This document shows, in pieces, positions 7,753 through 64,000 of a stretch of 64,000 nt of DNA. The DNA comes from Gordius sp. MW1 (taxonomy: Eukaryota > Nematomorpha > Gordioida > Gordea > Gordiidae), in contig OZ038528.1 of NCBI GenBank assembly GCA_964036665.1, forward strand, positions 26,027,245 to 26,091,244. The letters are read 5' to 3'. Made by a program: the position numbers and the translations under genes. Position 1 is the first letter of the stretch; every line of letters starts with the position of its first letter. The notes beneath the pieces are model-generated. The model was not told the DNA's origin and did no database searches. It saw nothing but the letters and a program-made list of their open reading frames with translations.

Positions 7753-9045
7753 CTATTTCCACCACATTTTTTTACAAACGTATTTTAACCCTTGATAGAT
7801 ATTGGGATCAAAATAAAATTGTATATAGACGCCTAGACAATTTATACCGTATTTCGTTATGTGGGCGAAATGCTGAAACCATAGTTCATTTTTGCTTTTA
7901 AACGTACCAGTCCATGGATAGGCAAAAATGTAAACGGTCATTGGTAATATGTTCAAGATAATATATATATTGGTAATTATCAAGAATAAGATGAATTTAT
8001 GTTGTCTATTTTTGCTTTTGTTCAAAATTTTGTTGTCTGCCTGAATCTTTGTGATCGGTATTTTCAGTGGAATCATATTAAAAGAAACATCACGGTGATC
8101 GCTTTTAAAACTAGAAGTTCTTGTGACGTATGGTAACAAAAGAGTGCTAACTACAACAGCACCTTTTCCGTCCAATTTTTTCATTTTGTTTTTTTTATCA
8201 ATCAGGCGTATATATAAATAGATTATAATGGTATTCGAAATAACTGTTATTGTTAATGGGACTATACAAAATATAACGTTGATTGAACGACGATAGCTAA
8301 TAAACCATTTACTAGATTCAGCATTCGGTCCGTGGAATTAACCATTATATTTACAAGCACTGTTGATTAAATTTAATCTTTGAGTTGTGCCATTTTTAAT
8401 GGTAATGCTGCTTGAAACGTGTGTTAAATTGTTGATGAATAAAATTACATCTATAAAATTTGTGTTTTTGTTTTCTACATAAACAACATTGTATCCCCAG
8501 CTGTACGGTATTGCTAAGGCCAGAGAAACAAAGAATCCTATAGCTAATATTAGATAACTAATAAGCCAGTTCTTGCAATGTTGTTTATAGCGATGTGGAA
8601 TTGTTAAAACACACAAACGTTCCAATGATATAGCTAAACGAAGGTAATTGCTGAAGTTGGCAAACGTATCTAATAGGGGAAAATTAACTTTAATTACATA
8701 AAAGACATACCAATTATTACAGGTGCATGTCGCGCATTTTAACATGTATGCGAATTTAGAGATTATTAATAAGGACAATATGAAATCGGAAAGGGTTATA
8801 ACTTTAGGAAACATGTACATTAAGAGTTTGCGTTTCTTTGCTATATTACTTCCGCTTATTGACTTAATTGAATCGACTCTGTATGATATATAATAAAGTG
8901 CACTTCCAGCAAGTCCGATCACCACTAAGATGGGTAGAATTATTCCATAAGTAATATTTATACTCCATAAAATGTATTTAAACGAAACTTCGGTTTCCTT
9001 GTCTCTATTCAAAGTTATCTTGGCTAACATAAGTGTACGAGGCAT
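7753..9045 (-). pseudogene. Class A GPCR-like receptor with one in-frame stop
   Basis: This is a seven-transmembrane receptor of the same family as the intact genes at 28596-29861 and 34147-35451, in one continuous frame of 431 codons. The only break is a TAA at 8338-8340 (codon 236). The paralogues have tyrosine there, after an NNG motif in the second extracellular loop. Upstream of the stop are transmembrane segments 1-4 and an ERL motif after helix 3. Downstream are segments 5-7, ending with the family's NCLGVYIQ motif. The paralogue's helix 2 LSD motif is kept. No indels are seen. It may be a very young pseudogene, a segregating allele, an assembly error, or it may use readthrough. Confidence 0.85.
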
Positions 9046-11261: not shown

Positions 11262-14200
11262 AACCTAACACCACCAACGATGGTCCCAAGTCCGTGTGCA
11301 AAAAGTAAAGGGTTGGAGTCAGGTGGACCGGCTGTAAAAAAACCTTTTCCAAATTATGACAGTTTTTAATAATAAAGTTCAACAAAAGAAAGCTAAGGCG
11401 TTCTCTCCAAACGACGCGCAGTGCATCATCCGCCCGTGCAATGCGAAAAATTTACAAGGGTTACCCCCTGATTCACAACGAAGGCGGTTAGGGAATCTAG
11501 TTGTGGACAAATTACGGGTAGCAAGCTGGAACGTGGGCACGCTGACGAGGAAAAGCATTGAGGTCGCACAGATGCTCAAAAGAAGAAAGATACACATCGC
11601 TTGCCTACAGGAAACGGGATGGAACGGAAGAAAGGCACGAGAGCTAGGAGAGGGTTACAAGCTATTTTACAGCGGTCACCAACAGGTCGAAACGAGGTCG
11701 GTATCGTTCTCAGCGAATTCTTCAAGGACAAGGTTGATGAAGTCAAAAGATGCTCAGATAGGTTGATGTGGGTTAAGATCGCAGATAAAGGTGGTCTCCT
11801 AACCGTTATTTGTGGCTACGCACCACAAATTGGGTGTTTGGAATCCGAAAAAGACACCTTCTTCGAATCATTGGAAAAGGAAATACAAGGAATACGACAG
11901 GAGGAAAGGCTAATTATTGGGGCAGACTTCAACGCCCACGTGGGAAAAGATCGTCAAAATTACGAAAGAAATCATGGAGGGCATGGGCATGGCATGAAGA
12001 ACAAGGAAGGGGATAGACTTCTACAAGTTTCCCAAGCATATGACATGGCGATCGTTAACACTTATTTTCAGAAACGTGAAAAACATATCGTGACGTACAG
12101 AAGTGGGAAGCATTTTAGTCAAATTGATTATCTGCTTATACGACGAAGAGATTTAAGGACGATTAAGGACTGCAAAGTAATACCGGGAGAAGAAATCGCC
12201 AGGCAACATCGGCCACTGGTCATGAATCTTGAAAGAAGAATATTTCCCAAAAGGAGAAAAGTTTGTGAGCCCCGAATTAGGTACGAAAGGCTTAAGGATA
12301 CGACAACAAACGAAAAATACCATCAGAAAGCCTCTACGCTGTTTAATGCCAAGACTCTGGAACGAAACGTGAACGACAATTGGACAATGATCACCGCTCA
12401 TCTAAAAGAAACGGCCATTCAGGTGTTAGGGCAGACCAAAGGGGGCAAAGCGCTAAATAGAGAACTATGGTGGTGGGACCAATCCGTTAGAAACATCATC
12501 GAAACCAAGAAAGCTCTATATAAGCGATGGCATATATCAAAAAAGTCGGAGGCTTATCAAGATTATAAGGAGGCAAAAAGTTCTGCAAAGAAGGCGGTTG
12601 CCATAGCGAAAAATACGGCTTACACAGAGATGGCCAACAAACTCGATCAAAGAGGGTGTGACAAGTTTATGTACAAATTGGCCAAGATAAGGGAGAAGAA
12701 AGGTCGTGACGTCGGGGTACTTAAAGTAATCAAAAATTCAGAAGGTCACACATTATTTAAGCCAAAGGAGGTGTTGGAAAGGTGGAAACGATATTTCAAC
12801 GAGCTCATGAATGTTGCAAATGACAAAGAACCCCTTCCCGATATAGAGCCTAACATGAATATGGTCGAACTATTTCAGGAAGAAGAAGTTAGGGTACAAA
12901 TAAAAAAGTTGCAAAAAGGAAAAGCTAATGGACCAGACGGAATTCCGTTGGAAGCGTTGGTAGTGTGCAGGGAAGAAGGAATCACGACTATGACAAAGCT
13001 ATTCAACAAGATATTGGTCGAAGAACGCATCCCTGATCAATGGAGACAAAGCACGATCATACCCATATTCAAAGGGAAAGAATACCCTCAAGATTGTGGT
13101 AATTACAGAGGCATCAAGCTGACATGCCACTCCTTGAAACTGATGGAAAGAATCTTAGTAGCAAGGTTGAAGACGGGGGTGGACATATCGACTAACCAAT
13201 TTGGTTTTGTGGCCGGTAAATCCACAATCGACCCGATCTTTGCGCTAAGACAAGTTATGGACAAGTATGGAGGGAAAAGAAGGAATCTACACATGGTCTT
13301 CATAGACTTGGAGAAAGCATATGACACGGTTCCCCGCAAATTGATTTGGTGGTGCTTGCATATGTACGGCTAATCAAAAACATCTATAAAGCCTTAACAT
13401 CGTGCGTTCGAACGACAGTTGGAGAGTCTAAGCCCTTTCAGGTCAATGTTGGTTTACACCAAGGTTCTGCCTTAAGTCTGTTTCTATTTAACGTTATTAT
13501 AGACACGATAACGAGGGACTTACAGAAGCCATCCCCTTGGTGTATGCTATATGCCGATGATATAGTATTATGCGAGGAAAAGAAGGATATCGTATTTGAA
13601 GAAGCCGATAAGTGGTCGAAACGTTTGGCTAGATATGGGCTCAAAGTCAATGACCGAAAGACGGTACATGGAGATGAACGCAGAAGGCACACAATCGATG
13701 AATGAACAATTGAAATTCCCAAGAGTTGACAAGTTTACGTACCTCGGCTCGATGCTACATCAAGAGGGTAGTTGCGCGAAAGAAGTTAATGCAAGAATTC
13801 AGAAGGGATGGTTAAAATGGCGTAGCGTATCCGGTGTAATGTGTGACAAGAAGATGCCAATATGGTTGAGGAGTATAGCTTAAAAATCTATCGTAAGACC
13901 GGTGTTACTCTACTGAAGTGAAACATGGGCATTGAACGCGATCCAAGAAAAACTATTACAAGCGACGGAAATGAGAATGATACGCTGGAGCTTGGGATAC
14001 ACAAAGTTGGACCATATGACGAATGAAAGTCTTAGAGAAAAAATGAGTATTCAGCCAATAGCCGACTATATTAACGAAAATCGGCTAAGATGGTATGGGC
14101 ATATCTTAAGAAGAAATGCGAGTGACGTCAATCGAATAGTACTAGACATGGAAGGGCCGGGAAAAAGAGGAAGAGGTCGACCTCGTGGTACCTGGAAAGG

Positions 14201-27070: not shown

Positions 27071-27198
27071 AAGGAAAGGCTAAATGCTCCTCCCAAAATC
27101 ATTATAAAATAATGAAACAAATTCTTGAATTGATTTACTAATTAGTTATTTATTTAATGATCGAAAAACGCTTATTGCTGAAGTATTTTAAATCAATG

Positions 27199-27515
27199 GT
27201 TCTTAACCTTTTTATATACGCGGCCCCCCAAATATTTTATAATTTTTTGCGTCCCCCCATTTTTTATATAATAATTTATATTTGTTAAATTATCTATAAT
27301 ACATTGATTTTCTATTATTGTTTCATTTTATTATATAATAAACATAAAACACAACTTTATTATTTCATTATCTATTTAAATAACATAAAAACTTCTACCA
27401 TTCAAAAAATTAATATCACTATAAATAATAAGTTTCACAGCTTTTTTTAATACCAGCAGGGTGTGAGTAGTTCTAGCGAACGTCTTGTAAACAGAAGGCA
27501 ACGAGTTCGAATTAT
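27199..27515 (-). mobile_element. Internally deleted derivative of the 58.7-61.4 kb hAT
   Basis: It starts CAATGGTTCTTAACCTTTTT, matching the inverted right end of the complete hAT (CAGTGGTTCTTAACC), and follows it through the GCGACCCCCC and TATAATAATTTATAT stretches. It then jumps to the 5' leader of the hAT (TACCATTCAAAAAATTA, TAAATAATAAGTTTCACA, GTCTTGTAAA). The transposase gene and the second end are missing. Confidence 0.75.
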
Positions 27516-28595: not shown

Positions 28596-29861
28596 CTATT
28601 TTCTCCACATATTATTGCAAACCAATTTAAATCCTTGATGAATTTTGGGGTCCATAAATAATTGTATATATACGCCTAGACAATTTATACCGTATTTCGT
28701 AGTGTAGGCGAAATGCTGAAACCATAGTTCAGTTTTGCTTTTAAACGTATCCGTCCAAGGTTGATAGGCAAACATGTAAATTGTCATGGGTAATATGTTT
28801 AAAATTAGATATAAATTGATAATTAACAAGAATAAGATTAATTTTTTTTGTCTATATTTGCTTTTCATTGAAGCTTGGCTGTCTGCGCAAATTATCGTAG
28901 TCGGTTTTTTCAGGGGCACCATATTAAAAGAAACATTATGATTATTGCCTTTAAAAATAGAAGTTCTTGTGTGTGGTAATAAAAGATTGCTAGCTGCAAC
29001 AATACTTTTATCGTCAGCTTTTTTTACTTTGTTCTTTTTATTCATCATACGTAAATAACAACAGATTGTTATAGTATTCGAAAAAACTGCTATTAATGGG
29101 ACTAGGCAAAATAAAACGTTGATTGAACGACGATAGCTTATAAACCATTTAATAGTTTTAAGATTCTGTGCATGGGAATAGCCATTGTTTTTACAAGCAC
29201 TGTTGTTCATATTTATTTTTGTTGTGACATTTTTAAAAATAGTGCTGCTTGAAACGTTTGTCAAATTGTTGATGAATGAAATACCATCTATAAAATTCGT
29301 GCTTTCGTTTTCTATATAAACGACATCATATCCCCAACTGTATGGTATCGTTAAGGCTAGACAAACAAAAAATCCTAGGGCTAATATAAGATATCTAATA
29401 TACCGGTTTTTACAAAATTCTGTATAGTGATGTGGTAATATTAAAGCACACAAACGCTCCACTGATATAGCTATACAAATGAAATTGCTGAAGTTGGGAA
29501 ACGTATCTAGTAGGGGAAAATTGATTTTAATTATATAAAAGGCATACCATTTAGAAGCGAAACATTTTTCGGATTTTAGCATGTATATTGCAAGGTTAGG
29601 TATAATGAATAGAGACAAGAGAAAATCGGAAAGGGTCATAAATCTGATTAATACGTACAGAGATAGTTTGTGCTTCTTTGCTATACCGCTTCCCGTTACC
29701 GAATTCAACGAAAAAACAACTTTATATGACATATAAAAAAGCACACTTCCAGCCACTCCGATCACCACGAGGATAGGTATAATTATTCCATAAGTGATAT
29801 TAATACTCCACAAAATATAATCGGACGAAACTACGATTTCTTTGGCCATATTCAAAGTCAT
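28596..29861 (-). CDS. Class A GPCR-like receptor, intact
   Basis: A 421-residue seven-transmembrane protein from one uninterrupted frame, probably a plasma-membrane receptor for a small ligand or peptide. Segments lie at about 15-45, 65-95, 102-133, 154-177, 247-273, 340-366 and 378-402. C100 at the top of helix 3 and C223 in loop 2 can form the usual disulphide. Helix 2 has LSD (D79). After helix 3 the DRY motif is ERL (135-137). Helix 6 has NILP. The NPxxY position in helix 7 reads GVYIQ, so it is atypical. Loop 2 holds several N-glycosylation sequons. The first ATG follows the conserved upstream block by about 110 bp. The ligand is unknown, and a neuropeptide-type receptor is only a guess. 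Confidence 0.9.
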   Translation of the reverse strand: MTLNMAKEIVVSSDYILWSINITYGIIIPILVVIGVAGSVLFYMSYKVVFSLNSVTGSGIAKKHKLSLYVLIRFMTLSDFLLSLFIIPNLAIYMLKSEKCFASKWYAFYIIKINFPLLDTFPNFSNFICIAISVERLCALILPHHYTEFCKNRYIRYLILALGFFVCLALTIPYSWGYDVVYIENESTNFIDGISFINNLTNVSSSTIFKNVTTKINMNNSACKNNGYSHAQNLKTIKWFISYRRSINVLFCLVPLIAVFSNTITICCYLRMMNKKNKVKKADDKSIVAASNLLLPHTRTSIFKGNNHNVSFNMVPLKKPTTIICADSQASMKSKYRQKKLILFLLIINLYLILNILPMTIYMFAYQPWTDTFKSKTELWFQHFAYTTKYGINCLGVYIQLFMDPKIHQGFKLVCNNMWRK

Positions 29862-34146: not shown

Positions 34147-35451
34147 ATGGCTCAAACACATACCGCACCTCAAGTGACTTTGAATATATCCAAGGAATCC
34201 GAAGTTTCGTATGAATATATTTTATGGAGCCTATATATTGTTTATGGAATGATTCTACCTATTCTAGTGGTGATCGGAGTTATTGGAAGTGCGCTTTATT
34301 ATATGTCACATAGAGTTGTCTTTTCAATCAAGTCTATAATGGGAAGCAATATAGCAAAGATGCACAAAATATCTGTGTACGTGTTAATTAGAGTTATTAC
34401 CCTTTCAGATTTCATCTTGTTCTTATTCATTCTCCCTAATTTTGCAATGTACATGTTAAAATACGAGACATGTTTCGCTAGTAAATGGTATGTCTTTTAT
34501 ATACTTAAAGTCAATTTTCCCCTATTGGAGACATTTGCCAACTTTAGCAATTACATTCGTATAGCTATATCATTAGAGCGCTTGTGGGCTTTAACTTTCC
34601 CACATCGCTATAAACAATTTTGCAAGGACTGGCGCATTAGATATCTGATATTGGCTTTCGGATTTTTCGTTTCTCTGGCCTCAGCAATACCGTATAGTTG
34701 GGGATATAACTTTGTTTATGTTGAAAAGAATAGCACATATTTTGTAGATAGAATTTTTCTCGTTAACAATCTGACACACGCTTCAAGCAGCATTGCCATT
34801 AAAAATGGCACAACTCAAAGATTGAATACAATCAACAGTGCTTGCAAAAATAATGGCTATTTTCACAGATCGAATGCTAAATCTATTAAATGGTTCAATA
34901 GCTATCGTCGTACGATCAACGTTGTATTTTGTCTAGTCCCGTTAATAATGACACTTAGTTCGAATACAATTATAATCTGTTATTATTTACGTTTGATGAG
35001 TCAAAAAAACAAAATAAAAAAGTCTAATGGGAAGAGTGTTGTTGCAGCTGACAATCTTTTGATTCCAAGTGTCACAAGAGCGTCGAGTAATAGAAGCGAT
35101 CAGCATGATGTTTCTTTTAATATGATGCCTCTGAAAAAGCCCACTACACAGGTTAACGGGGACAACCAAGCTTCTACAAAAATAAGAAAATATAGACAGA
35201 ACAAATTAATCTTATTATTGATAGTTATCAATATATATCTTATTCTAAACATATTGCCAACGACAATTTACATGTTTGCTTATCAACCATGGACGGATAC
35301 ATATAAAAGCAAAACTGAACTATGGTTTCAGCATTTCGCCTACATTACGAAATACGGTGTAAATTGTCTAGGCGTATATATACAATTATTTTTAGAACCA
35401 AAAATTCATCAAGGATTTATATACGTTTGTAAAAATTTGTGGCATAAATAG
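34147..35451 (+). CDS. Class A GPCR-like receptor, intact
   Basis: A 434-residue receptor in one open frame. Transmembrane segments are at about 24-53, 74-104, 112-143, 163-187, 256-284, 353-377 and 391-416. N13 in the N-terminus and N195, N208 and N220 in loop 2 are N-glycosylation sequons. C109 and C233 can form the conserved disulphide. D88 in LSD is the helix 2 aspartate. The DRY motif is ERL (144-146). Helix 6 has NILP with P371. The NPxxY site is replaced by GVYIQ. The third inner loop (about 285-350) is long and basic. It is divergent from the copy at 28596-29861, with about 4.3 kb between starts. The family is Rhodopsin-like by layout. The ligand is unknown. Confidence 0.92.
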   Translation: MAQTHTAPQVTLNISKESEVSYEYILWSLYIVYGMILPILVVIGVIGSALYYMSHRVVFSIKSIMGSNIAKMHKISVYVLIRVITLSDFILFLFILPNFAMYMLKYETCFASKWYVFYILKVNFPLLETFANFSNYIRIAISLERLWALTFPHRYKQFCKDWRIRYLILAFGFFVSLASAIPYSWGYNFVYVEKNSTYFVDRIFLVNNLTHASSSIAIKNGTTQRLNTINSACKNNGYFHRSNAKSIKWFNSYRRTINVVFCLVPLIMTLSSNTIIICYYLRLMSQKNKIKKSNGKSVVAADNLLIPSVTRASSNRSDQHDVSFNMMPLKKPTTQVNGDNQASTKIRKYRQNKLILLLIVINIYLILNILPTTIYMFAYQPWTDTYKSKTELWFQHFAYITKYGVNCLGVYIQLFLEPKIHQGFIYVCKNLWHK

Positions 35452-58574: not shown

Positions 58575-58727
58575 AAATACATTTTTTTGATAAATATATA
58601 AGGCGAACCCTATTTACACCATATATTTCTACAAATGTATTTTAATCCTTGATGAATTTTGGGTTCCAGAATTACCAGAATTAATAGTATATATACGCCT
58701 AAACAATTTACACCATATTTCGTAATA
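58575..58727 (-). pseudogene. GPCR pseudogene, C-terminal piece
   Basis: The minus strand keeps the end of helix 7 and the C-terminus of the receptor family (compare 7753-7860). It ends exactly at the left hAT target duplication. It continues at 61405-61512 and 63246-64000. Confidence 0.8.
58720..58727. repeat. Left target duplication of the hAT
   Basis: TCGTAATA, identical to 61405-61412. Confidence 0.92.
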
Positions 58728-59178
58728 CAGTGATTCTTAACCTAGGGGTCGCGACCCCCAAGGGGGTCGCGAGAAGTTTGCCGGGGGGTCGCCAAATTTT
58801 TTTAGAATAAAATAAAAATATTCAGAAAAGCTTTAGAAAAAATACTCACCTTGGGATTCGAACTCGTTGCATTATGTTTGTTTACATTTACAAGACGTCG
58901 CTATAACCACTCACACCATGCTGCTATTAAAATACGTTGTGAAACTTATTATTTATAATGAAAATAATTTTTTGAATGGTAGATTTTTTTGCTGTTTCAT
59001 AATTTATTCATTTTCTAATCTTTAAAATAATTATCTTCATTTAATTTTACAATTCAACAAATTTAACTTCTGAAATTTAAAAATAAAGCGAACTTCTCAC
59101 CACAGACTTTGGATCGCAAAATAGTGCATTATTTCTTATATTGTTTGTTCATTTTAAATAGTTATTATATTCCATATT

Positions 59179-61119
59179 ATGAGCAAAAAGCAGAAAGAAA
59201 CATTGGAAATTTTTTTTGATCTAAATAATCGCGGACCAGGAACTTCAAATATTAGTGAAGGTTCCGATGATGATACAGCGAAAAATGAAACGGAAAAAAC
59301 CAATAGTCCTAAAACTAAAGGTATAAAATCAAGTAACAATAGAATTAGAAAATACTATCGTGATTATATTAAATATGGGTTTGTAAGCATAGAAGTTCGA
59401 GGAACTACAAAACCACAATGTGTTATATGTGGTGTAGTTCTCTCTAATGAATCAATGAAACCTAATAAATTGTGGAGGCATTTAAATCTTAACCATGATA
59501 AATATAAAAATAAAAAGGAAGATTTTTTTATAAGAAAAAGAGATGAATTAAAAAATCAAAAGACGCTCATAAATGTGACAACTACTACCAATAAAAATTT
59601 ATTAAAAGCTTCATTTATTGCAGCTTTGTACATTGCAAAAGCAAAAAAACCATTTACTATAGCCGAAGAATTATTAAAACCTGCCATGTTTAATATTTGT
59701 AAAGAGCTATTTGAACCCTTTGTGTCAAACAAAATTAAAGAAATACCTTTGTCAAATGATGCAATTTATAATAGAACTTTATTAATAGCTAATGATCTTC
59801 AGGAACAGTTAACTGGCTATATTAAAAATTCTCCTTGGTTCTCATTACAAATAGATGAATCTACAGATGTTTCTAACAGGAGCATTTGCTTAGGATACAT
59901 TCGATTTATTGATTTTATAAAAATGGATATATCTGAAGAATTTCTCTTTTGCATAGACTTAGAAACAGATACAACAAGTGAAAATATATTTAACAAAATA
60001 GATTCCTTTCTGAATACTAATGGCTTACTCTGGAAAAACTGTGTTGGAATTTGCACAGATGGTGCTGCCTCTATGACTGGCTGTTATAAGGGCATTACAT
60101 CAAGAATAAAACGTATTGCACATGCAAACATAACAACTACTCATTGTTTTATTCATAGGGAACAATTAGCCTCCAAGGAAATGAGTGAAGAATTGAATGA
60201 AGTTTTGATAATTTCAGTAAAGATTATAAATTTCATAAAAGGAAGTTCACTAAAGTCAAGATTATTTTCAATTTTTTGTGAAGAAGTTGGCGCAGATAAT
60301 AGTTCTCTTTTATTTCACACAGAAGTGAGATGGCTTTCACGAGGAAAAATCTTAACTCGTTTATTTGAATTGAGACTGGAAGTTGAACTTTTTTTAAATG
60401 ATAAAAACTCCAGCCTATCAAGCTATTTTGATGACAATAATTGGGTCGCTAAATTGTCATATCTAGCGGATATTTTTACAATTCTAAATCAGTTGAATAT
60501 ATCTATGCAAGGACCTAAATCTGATATTTTTACTATGCATAACAAAATTGAGGCTATGAAAATGAAATTACAAAGATGGATTCAAAGAATAGACTCAAAT
60601 ATATATGAAATGTTTCCATTCTATTCACAACTAATCTCTGATTCAAAATTTCAATTCGAGAAAGAAAATGTAAATTACTTGATTAAATGTCATATTTTAA
60701 AATTAATTGATAAATTTGAAAAATATTTCCCTAATGATGAAGGTCACATTACAAAACTCTGGATTCAAGATCCATACAACAATTATAAAAATACCAATTT
60801 ATCATCAGATGATGAAGATTCATTATTAGAATTAATAAATGATTGTAATTTAAAATCTTTGTTTAAAACTAAAAGTTTGGCGCAAGTTTGGATACAAATT
60901 CGTGCAGAATATCCTCCATTATTTTCAGCAGCAATGCAAAATTTGCTGCCTTTCGCTTGTACATATTTGTGTGAAAAAGGTTTCTCAACTATGGTGGATA
61001 TAAAAACTAAAAAACGCAATCGATTGCGACTAGATTCCTGCATGAGGATAGCATTACAATCAATTGAACCAAGAATTAACAAATTGGTTGATGATGTTCA
61101 GCAGCAGAAATCTCATTAA
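59179..61119 (+). CDS. hAT transposase (ZBED5/SCAND3-like), intact
   Basis: This 646-residue protein would cut and paste the surrounding element in the nucleus. An acidic, serine-rich N-terminus precedes a BED-type zinc finger (C81, C84, H101, H106). The hAT catalytic domain shows QIDESTD with D226, CTDGAASM with D294, the HCFIH site (H322, C323, H326) and EVRWLSRG with W385. The C-terminal dimerisation region has LPFACTYLCEKGFS with E599, then KTKKRNRL. D226, D294 and E599 are the likely catalytic acids. The length fits the family and no stop or frameshift is present. Related proteins in vertebrates are domesticated copies, but the ends and duplication here mark this as a transposon gene. 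The ATG at 59179 lies 450 bp inside the left end. Confidence 0.93.
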   Translation: MSKKQKETLEIFFDLNNRGPGTSNISEGSDDDTAKNETEKTNSPKTKGIKSSNNRIRKYYRDYIKYGFVSIEVRGTTKPQCVICGVVLSNESMKPNKLWRHLNLNHDKYKNKKEDFFIRKRDELKNQKTLINVTTTTNKNLLKASFIAALYIAKAKKPFTIAEELLKPAMFNICKELFEPFVSNKIKEIPLSNDAIYNRTLLIANDLQEQLTGYIKNSPWFSLQIDESTDVSNRSICLGYIRFIDFIKMDISEEFLFCIDLETDTTSENIFNKIDSFLNTNGLLWKNCVGICTDGAASMTGCYKGITSRIKRIAHANITTTHCFIHREQLASKEMSEELNEVLIISVKIINFIKGSSLKSRLFSIFCEEVGADNSSLLFHTEVRWLSRGKILTRLFELRLEVELFLNDKNSSLSSYFDDNNWVAKLSYLADIFTILNQLNISMQGPKSDIFTMHNKIEAMKMKLQRWIQRIDSNIYEMFPFYSQLISDSKFQFEKENVNYLIKCHILKLIDKFEKYFPNDEGHITKLWIQDPYNNYKNTNLSSDDEDSLLELINDCNLKSLFKTKSLAQVWIQIRAEYPPLFSAAMQNLLPFACTYLCEKGFSTMVDIKTKKRNRLRLDSCMRIALQSIEPRINKLVDDVQQQKSH

Positions 61120-61195
61120 ATATATTTCCGAATGCATATCCTTTTTATTATAAATGAATTGTTTTTATGTTTAATTATGAAGTTTTTATGTTGAT

Positions 61196-61240
61196 ATTAT
61201 TTCATTATCTATTTAAATTTTAAATAGATAATGAAATAAT
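61196..61240. other. 45-bp near-perfect palindrome in the hAT 3' region
   Basis: Arms of 22 bp (ATTATTTCATTATCTATTTAAA and its inverse) are separated by one T. The position is about 75 bp after the transposase stop. Confidence 0.85.
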
Positions 61241-61404
61241 AAAGTTGTGTTTTATGTTTATTATTTAATAAAATGAAACAATAATGAAAAATCATATAAT
61301 AGATAATTTAACAAATATAAATTATTATAAAAAAAATGGGGGGGTCGCAAAAAAATTATAAAATATTTGGGGGGTCGCATGTATAAAAAGGTTAAGAACC
61401 ACTG

Positions 61405-61512
61405 TCGTAATATATGCTGAACCATAGTTCCGTTTGGCTATTAAACGTATCCGTCCATGAAAAGCAAACATGTAAATTGTCATTGGTAATATTCAAAATA
61501 AGATATATTAAT
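61405..61512 (-). pseudogene. GPCR pseudogene, middle piece
   Basis: The minus strand encodes a helix 6 to helix 7 part (INIYLILNI, then FSWTDTFNSQTELWFS after small changes). It begins with the right hAT duplication and ends at the next insertion at 61513. Confidence 0.8.
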
Positions 61513-63245: not shown

Positions 63246-64000
63246 AACTATCAATAATAGATACATCATACTGATCGCTTTTAAAATTTGAAGTTGTGTT
63301 CATATGTAGTAAAAAAAGATTGCTAGCTGCAACAACCCTTTTCTCTTTATTTATTTTGTTTTTTTGATTAATCAGACTTAAATAATAGATTGTACAGGGA
63401 TTCGCAATAACTGCTATTATCAATGGAACAAGACAAAATACAACGTTGATCGAGCGACGATAGCTAATGAGCCATTTACTAGATTCAGGATTTGGTGTAT
63501 GGAAATATTCATTATTTTTACAGACATTGTTGTATAAATTTACTTTTTTGTGACATTTTTAATAGAAATGTTGCGCGAAACGCTTGTCAAATTATTGTTG
63601 AATAAAATTCCATCTATGAAATCTGCGCTTTTGTTTTCTACATATGCAACATTAAAACCCCAACTGTACGGTATTGCCAAAGCCAGAGAGGCGGAAAATC
63701 CTAAAGCTAATATAAGATATCTAATATGCCACTTCTTGCAAAATTGTTTATAGTGATGTGGGAATCGTAAAGCTCACAAACGTTCCAATGATATAGCTAT
63801 ACGAATGTAATTGCTGAAGTTGGCAAATGTATCTAATAGGGGAAAATTCACTTAAGTAGATACATGACATACATTCACTAGCGAAACATGTCTCATATTT
63901 TAACAAGTACATTGCAAAGTTTGGGAGAATAAATAAGTATAATATGAAATCGGAAAGATTTATAACTCCAAGTAACATATATATTGATAGTTTGTATTTC
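63246..64000 (-). pseudogene. GPCR pseudogene, N-terminal to loop 3 piece, runs off window
   Basis: The minus strand encodes, in shifted frames, the helix 2 LSDFILYLFILPNFAMYLLKY stretch region, the YETCFAS cysteine, a TM4/loop 2 segment (AIPYSWGFN) and the TM5 to loop 3 part (VIANPCTIYYLSLINQKNK). Frameshifts occur after YETCFAS and in loop 2. The N-terminus lies beyond 64000. Together with 61405-61512 and 58575-58727 it makes one receptor copy cut by two insertions. Confidence 0.85.

Follow-up and report, generated by a model that had tools for sequence, protein, structure and literature searches.

A very recently amplified hAT transposon of Gordius sp. MW1, likely a Buster-branch member and probably still mobile

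The element and its insertion site

The window, by which we mean the whole 64,000-nucleotide stretch of Gordius sp. MW1 DNA analysed here, contains a hAT element with the following features, given in window positions.

58720..58727, unstranded: left target-site duplication TCGTAATA, perfect, 8 bp
58728..61404, + strand: whole hAT element, 2,677 bp
58728..58743, + strand: left terminal inverted repeat CAGTGATTCTTAACCT, 16 bp
58745..58758, unstranded: left-end palindrome GGGGTCGCGACCCC, two head-to-head copies of GGGGTCGC, a proposed paired zinc-finger binding site
58763..58792, + strand: two further left-end copies of GGGGTCGC (58763-58770, 58785-58792)
59179..61119, + strand: transposase frame, 646 codons, single exon
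59419..59496, + strand: BED-like finger C81-x2-C84-x16-H101-x4-H106 (zf-BED match below cut-off)
59854..59856, + strand: D226, proposed first catalytic Asp, from a hAT motif
60058..60060, + strand: D294, proposed second catalytic Asp, from a hAT motif
60958..60960, + strand: codon 594, Cys in the window copy and in two others (L002, L003), Ser in the majority
60973..60975, + strand: E599, proposed catalytic Glu, from a hAT motif
61195..61241, unstranded: perfect inverted repeat with 23-bp arms and a single central base, 3' of the transposase frame
61341..61378, + strand: two right-end copies of GGGGTCGC (61341-61348, 61371-61378), forming no palindrome
61389..61404, - strand: right terminal inverted repeat CAGTGGTTCTTAACCT, 16 bp
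61405..61412, unstranded: right target-site duplication TCGTAATA, perfect, 8 bp

An earlier note, made from the letters of the window, had described an apparently intact element with matching terminal repeats, a perfect 8-bp duplication and a lesion-free transposase of 646 codons. This description was confirmed in each part: the terminal repeats agree over 16 bp with one mismatch, the duplication is perfect, the element's coordinates are exact, and the frame contains no stop, so that frame, ends and duplication are all whole. Terminal inverted repeats of 10-25 bp and a length of 2.5-5 kb are given for the hAT superfamily in an excerpt of PMC3942097, and the element lies within both ranges (16 bp, 2,677 bp); the 8-bp target-site duplication expected of a hAT element is present in 41 of 42 near-full-length copies. 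Allowing up to two mismatches, we found the terminal 16-mer three times in the window, where shuffles gave an expectation of 0.03; the third match lies inside an old derivative at 27194. This derivative (27194-27512) is an old non-autonomous relative in reverse orientation, in which 189 bp of the right end are 92% identical and a left-end piece 88% identical to the element; its right part ends at the centre of the inverted repeat at 61195-61241.

The flanks of the window copy belong to an orphan 7TM-like gene copy that has degenerated through stops and frame shifts, and the insertion was therefore probably harmless; the gene is intact elsewhere in the window. The earlier note had proposed a search for empty sites. 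Once the flanks were joined, 17 genome places matched across the joint at 69-80% identity; these are paralogues rather than alleles and do not bear on polymorphism. The related intronless 7TM-like genes form an array in the window (7756-9045, 28596-29861, 34147-35451, 58613-58726 and 63259-63999), with two intact genes of 421 and 434 residues and the others degenerate; three of these frames were compared with Pfam and had no match at E 0.01. By eye, open frames at 1610-2503 and 11601-13373 resemble the integrase and reverse-transcriptase frames of other elements.

The transposase

Three Pfam families match the transposase below their curated cut-offs: DUF4371 at residues 220-305 (E 5.8e-5), Dimer_Tnp_hAT (PF05699) at residues 567-628 (14.3 bits, E 0.036, cut-off 21.4) and zf-BED (PF02892) at residues 77-106 (12.6 bits, E 0.14, cut-off 20.6). 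The order and spacing of these matches and of the key residues fit a predicted hAT transposase. The earlier note had placed the D, D, E and zinc-finger residues in the protein, and C81, C84, H101, H106, D226, D294 and E599 are indeed all present; that the first four are zinc ligands and the last three catalytic is proposed from hAT motifs. A search of PDB sequences with the transposase found no credible relative, and its sole match, a ribosomal protein at E 0.36, was rejected as an unrelated molecule. A single-sequence AlphaFold2 model of the protein was unusable (mean pLDDT 34.2) and did not yield an RNase H-like fold.

Copies in the genome

The genome searched comprises 211.8 Mb in 12 contigs; TTAGGG-type telomeres, a type that argues against most insects and nematodes, were seen at two chromosome starts. 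The first 38 bases of the left end occur, with up to three mismatches, at 185 places, 73 of them exact, while a reversed control of the same 38-mer had no genome match at this threshold. The right-end 36-mer, with up to two mismatches, occurs at 310 places, 71 of them exact. Pairing the exact ends gave 68 pairs, of which 62 span 2,600-2,720 bp and 46 exactly 2,677 bp; the pairing also revealed two derivatives of 1,577 and 1,578 bp located 44 kb apart on C6. Five exact left ends lack an exact partner on the right, four of them belonging to two composites described below and the fifth lying at C8:10023057.

Complete sequences were read for 49 of the 73 copies (L001-L008, L039-L078), and 42 of these align over the full length. 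Of the remaining seven, four are composite arms, one has an internal deletion, one is interrupted and one is the outer member of a nest. Perfect 8-bp duplications, 38 of them distinct, flank 41 of the 42 near-full-length copies; the flanking duplication of L062 does not match. In the nest on C5 (3258835-3264196), the inner copy has its own duplication and the outer flanks are unmatched.

Age, coding state and sources of the burst

Compared with their majority sequence, the 42 copies carry a mean of 1.29 substitutions over 2,677 sites (0.048%; indels not counted), the mean pairwise difference among them is 0.093%, and ten have no substitution at all. The earlier note had suggested searching for near-identical copies and had named a genome holding only old, diverged copies as one outcome that would speak against its reading. 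The near identity of the 42 copies contradicts that outcome and, together with the perfect duplications, upholds the claim of recent insertion.

The transposase frame is widely preserved. Among the 68 matches scored in a protein search (out of 853 candidates), 56 are open over residues 1-646, two of them with small in-frame indels. Among the 42 read copies, the frame encodes exactly 646 residues in 33 and 644 in one, and it is broken in eight. Private changes within the frame (n=19) include 14 missense, five synonymous and no nonsense changes, and show no purifying selection; the 14:5 ratio is close to that of random change, which is the pattern anticipated if copies drift once they have inserted.

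Several variants are shared among copies, for example 127C/205T in four, 482T in four, 492G in four and 2231T in three, the window copy included. These define sublineages, which implies that more than one copy acted as a source. L056 and L057, located 24.6 kb apart, have a nonsense change and a second substitution in common and differ in their duplications, so that one of them moved after its frame was broken; the broken copy was presumably mobilised by enzyme supplied from elsewhere.

The window copy itself differs from the majority by three changes, two of them private (one synonymous, one outside the frame) and the third, S594C, common to L002 and L003. It is an ordinary member of the family, one of the 62 full-length spans. 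Its candidacy for mobility, put forward in the earlier note, is supported, with the qualification that the copy does not stand out from the rest of its family. The terms autonomous and mobile agree with the many open frames and should be read as probable.

Intact ends and frames, near identity, perfect duplications and sublineages point to a burst that is very recent, had several sources and is probably live. We assign a probability of about 0.9 to the reading that the element is a hAT cut-and-paste transposon, most likely of the Buster branch, that was amplified very recently and is probably still mobile. The hAT assignment is firm and the Buster branch likely; expression, catalysis, motif binding and present-day movement we infer from the sequence.

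A recent burst that has already ended, its young copies silenced (e.g., by small RNAs) and immobile, is a possibility to which we give distinctly less weight. In its favour, the 42 copies hold 26 private substitutions over 2,677 bp each (2.3e-4 per site), which at an assumed rate of 3e-9 substitutions per site per generation permits roughly 77,000 generations at most, or less if some changes are assembly errors, and nine of the 42 read copies lack the 646-residue frame. The ten copies without a substitution from the majority and the predominance of open protein matches argue against it.

Older relatives and the origin of the burst

The family also has older members in this genome. All 27 listed inexact left ends carry the same two mismatches, and the four such copies that were read are internally deleted derivatives of ~690-730 bp, in which roughly positions 1-142 are joined to 2088-2677. 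Their aligned pieces are 90-97% identical to the element, and two of the four keep perfect duplications. A search with one derivative found most scored copies (40 scored of 1,837 candidates) to be 93-96% identical to the query and three to be 98-99% identical. In addition, a truncated, frame-shifted copy on C8 is 89.5% identical to the element. Element fragments at C8:26136173, 26154869, 26173566 and 26192216 follow one another in steps of ~18.7 kb, a spacing that suggests large units arrayed in tandem, and the last of them is this truncated copy. Beside an old derivative (L079, C1:396602-399578) lies an open frame of 154 residues that resembles, by eye, the start of a receptor ligand-binding domain.

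Given these derivatives, the family had an earlier history in this genome, and the current burst represents a new episode, arising by persistence or by re-invasion. Re-invasion, i.e., arrival by horizontal transfer from some other species in a genome already holding an older relative, seems to us rather doubtful. It would account for the ~720-bp derivatives and the truncated copy standing beside a uniform young burst, and for the fact that none of the 68 protein matches scored is an intact copy of intermediate age; since these are 68 of 853 candidates, however, older copies may be unseen. Viral contigs, in which 12 pattern matches yielded no confirmed relative, offered it no support.

Target choice and spacing of copies

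All 41 copies with perfect duplications have TA at positions 4-5 of the duplication, and a wider palindromic preference is visible in a T two bases outside on the left (35/41) and its mirrored A (32/41). The invariant TA agrees with nnnTAnnn, the 8-bp duplication consensus of TcBuster from Tribolium castaneum as stated in an excerpt of PMC3499496. The family is thus likened to TcBuster by target consensus, from which its outer T and A set it apart. The Hermes-like consensus of the Ac branch, nTnnnnAn, is not followed, with T at position 2 in 22 of 41 copies and A at position 7 in 27 of 41.

Copies are clustered in the genome. Counting each composite once, we found 3, 5 and 8 pairs within 10, 30 and 100 kb, where 0.24, 0.71 and 2.33 were expected; these counts were reached by 12, 4 and 7 of 3,000 simulations, respectively, in which C9 was taken as 1.5 Mb and C10-C12 were left out. 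A tally of 5, 7 and 10 pairs against 0.24, 0.74 and 2.44 expected was set aside, being inflated by counting each composite twice. The clustering is consistent with local movement, and target hotspots could also produce it. All five pairs within 10 kb are arranged tail to tail, or three of three once the two composites are removed, and we draw no inference from this. Five of 44 flank pairs (L039, L040, L046, L068, L073) lie in one abundant repeat family, where L039, L040 and the C5 composite occupy the same position.

Two further close pairs lie on C7. The pair at C7:18575359/18581692 consists of two separate insertions, each with its own duplications. The duplications at C7:20362414/20368278 have changed places and stand in reverse complement (TCCTACAG...TTCTAATG and CTGTAGGA...CATTAGAA), as expected if recombination between inverted copies had flipped the ~0.5 kb between them.

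Subterminal motifs and proposed mechanism

The two ends of the element differ in their subterminal motifs. At the left end, GGGGTCGC is found 18, 36 and 58 from the tip, and an inverted copy at 24 creates the palindrome GGGGTCGCGACCCC, which is conserved in each of the four older derivatives that were read. The right end has the motif 27 and 57 from its tip, both times in the same orientation, and the interior of the element has none. We infer that these motifs bind the transposase finger. In the mechanism that we propose, the 646-residue transposase would recognise the ends through its zinc finger, at GGGGTCGC and its left-only palindrome, and through the terminal repeats; it would then excise the element and insert it at TA-centred 8-bp sites, which would become duplicated.

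Left-left composites

Two composite insertions have left ends on both sides. The first, C5:19698702-19703758 (5,057 bp), comprises element positions 1-2670 followed by inverted 2387-1 and is flanked on both sides by CTTTAGAG in direct orientation; it carries two open transposase frames, of 646 and 690 codons, the latter extending beyond the join. The second, C2:14751931-14758447 (6,517 bp), comprises positions 1-2108 followed by inverted 2669-1, its first arm being interrupted near 1433 by ~1.7 kb of unrelated sequence, and is flanked on both sides by CTCTAGAC, again in direct orientation. The long arm of each lacks 7-8 bp of its right tip, which leaves the two left ends as the sole complete ends. 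Both arms of the C2 composite carry the sublineage pair 127C/205T and therefore probably derive from one element or from close kin.

With its one perfect duplication, each composite is best explained by insertion through two left ends. A damaged right end could have been joined to an inverted second copy ending in a left end, and the product would then have inserted through left-left pairing. We consider it fairly probable that the transposase completes left-left transposition in nature, at a low but real rate that gave at least two independent composites, and that the left palindrome makes the left end the dominant capture end; the same proposal would have left-left pairing work weakly and right-right pairing fail.

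It is unlikely, in our judgement, that both composites are instead rearrangements of ordinary insertions. Inversion by recombination between copies does occur in this genome, as at the C7 pair; unmatched flanks exist (the nested C5 copy, L062); and insertions in paralogous units of the abundant repeat that holds the C5 composite could share 8 bp by chance. Such rearrangements, however, fit poorly with a single perfect outer duplication in direct orientation around each composite. The 28-mer of the C2 empty site has no match elsewhere at up to three mismatches, and none of the other 43 flank pairs matches those of C2. The C5 target 24-mer occurs at 312 genome places with up to two mismatches, and the composite's target has T at a position that is A in 99 of the 100 places listed. 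A mirrored-read artefact was rejected as it would mirror the flanks, which are not mirrored. No description of hAT composites of this left-left kind in nature came up in a limited search of the open-licence literature that used few wordings.

Assembly collapse or gene conversion in place of a recent burst is very improbable, because the 41 copies lying in their own targets have undecayed duplications that conversion would not renew, despite the similarity of the copies and the recombination observed on C7.

Comparison with known systems

Among mammalian genes, ZBED5/Buster1 is a domesticated Buster-type transposase whose finger pattern appears similar to that of the transposase here, although ZBED5 is a host gene and the present element is mobile. 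ZBED5 is placed in the Buster family in an excerpt of PMC3606216.

Hermes of Musca domestica, from the Ac branch, likewise encodes a transposase with a BED-type finger and has asymmetric ends. According to excerpts of PMC10368747, a quasi-palindromic subterminal repeat pair bound by the BED domain is present at its left end only, donors with two left ends (LE/LE) kept little mobilisation and those with two right ends (RE/RE) none, and structures and assays indicate that the two ends must differ. The Hermes motif is AAGT rather than GGGGTCGC, its target nTnnnnAn rather than nnnTAnnn, and its LE/LE donors are barely mobile, whereas two natural left-left insertions are proposed here. The hATx-6 element from Hydra has a hAT transposase of 674 residues with a BED finger, reported in an excerpt of PMC8721813 to be active in vitro when given just left ends or just right ends; it has a low target preference, in contrast to the invariant TA of the present family. 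In maize, alternative transposition and macrotransposons of Ac/Ds use the ends of two separate copies together (excerpts of PMC4270019 and PMC3260210), the pairing there being between 5' and 3' ends and not between two left ends.

Implications

The left-left composites bear on how hAT enzymes pair their ends. If they arose as we propose, they would suggest that the rule of differing ends is, in a living genome, a strong preference and not an absolute one. Only a small number of naturally occurring hAT elements are known to be live. With at least 56 open matches and scores of dated insertions, the present family would provide a set in which target choice, local spread, the movement of broken copies and silencing may be studied, and it represents a candidate tool for gene delivery.
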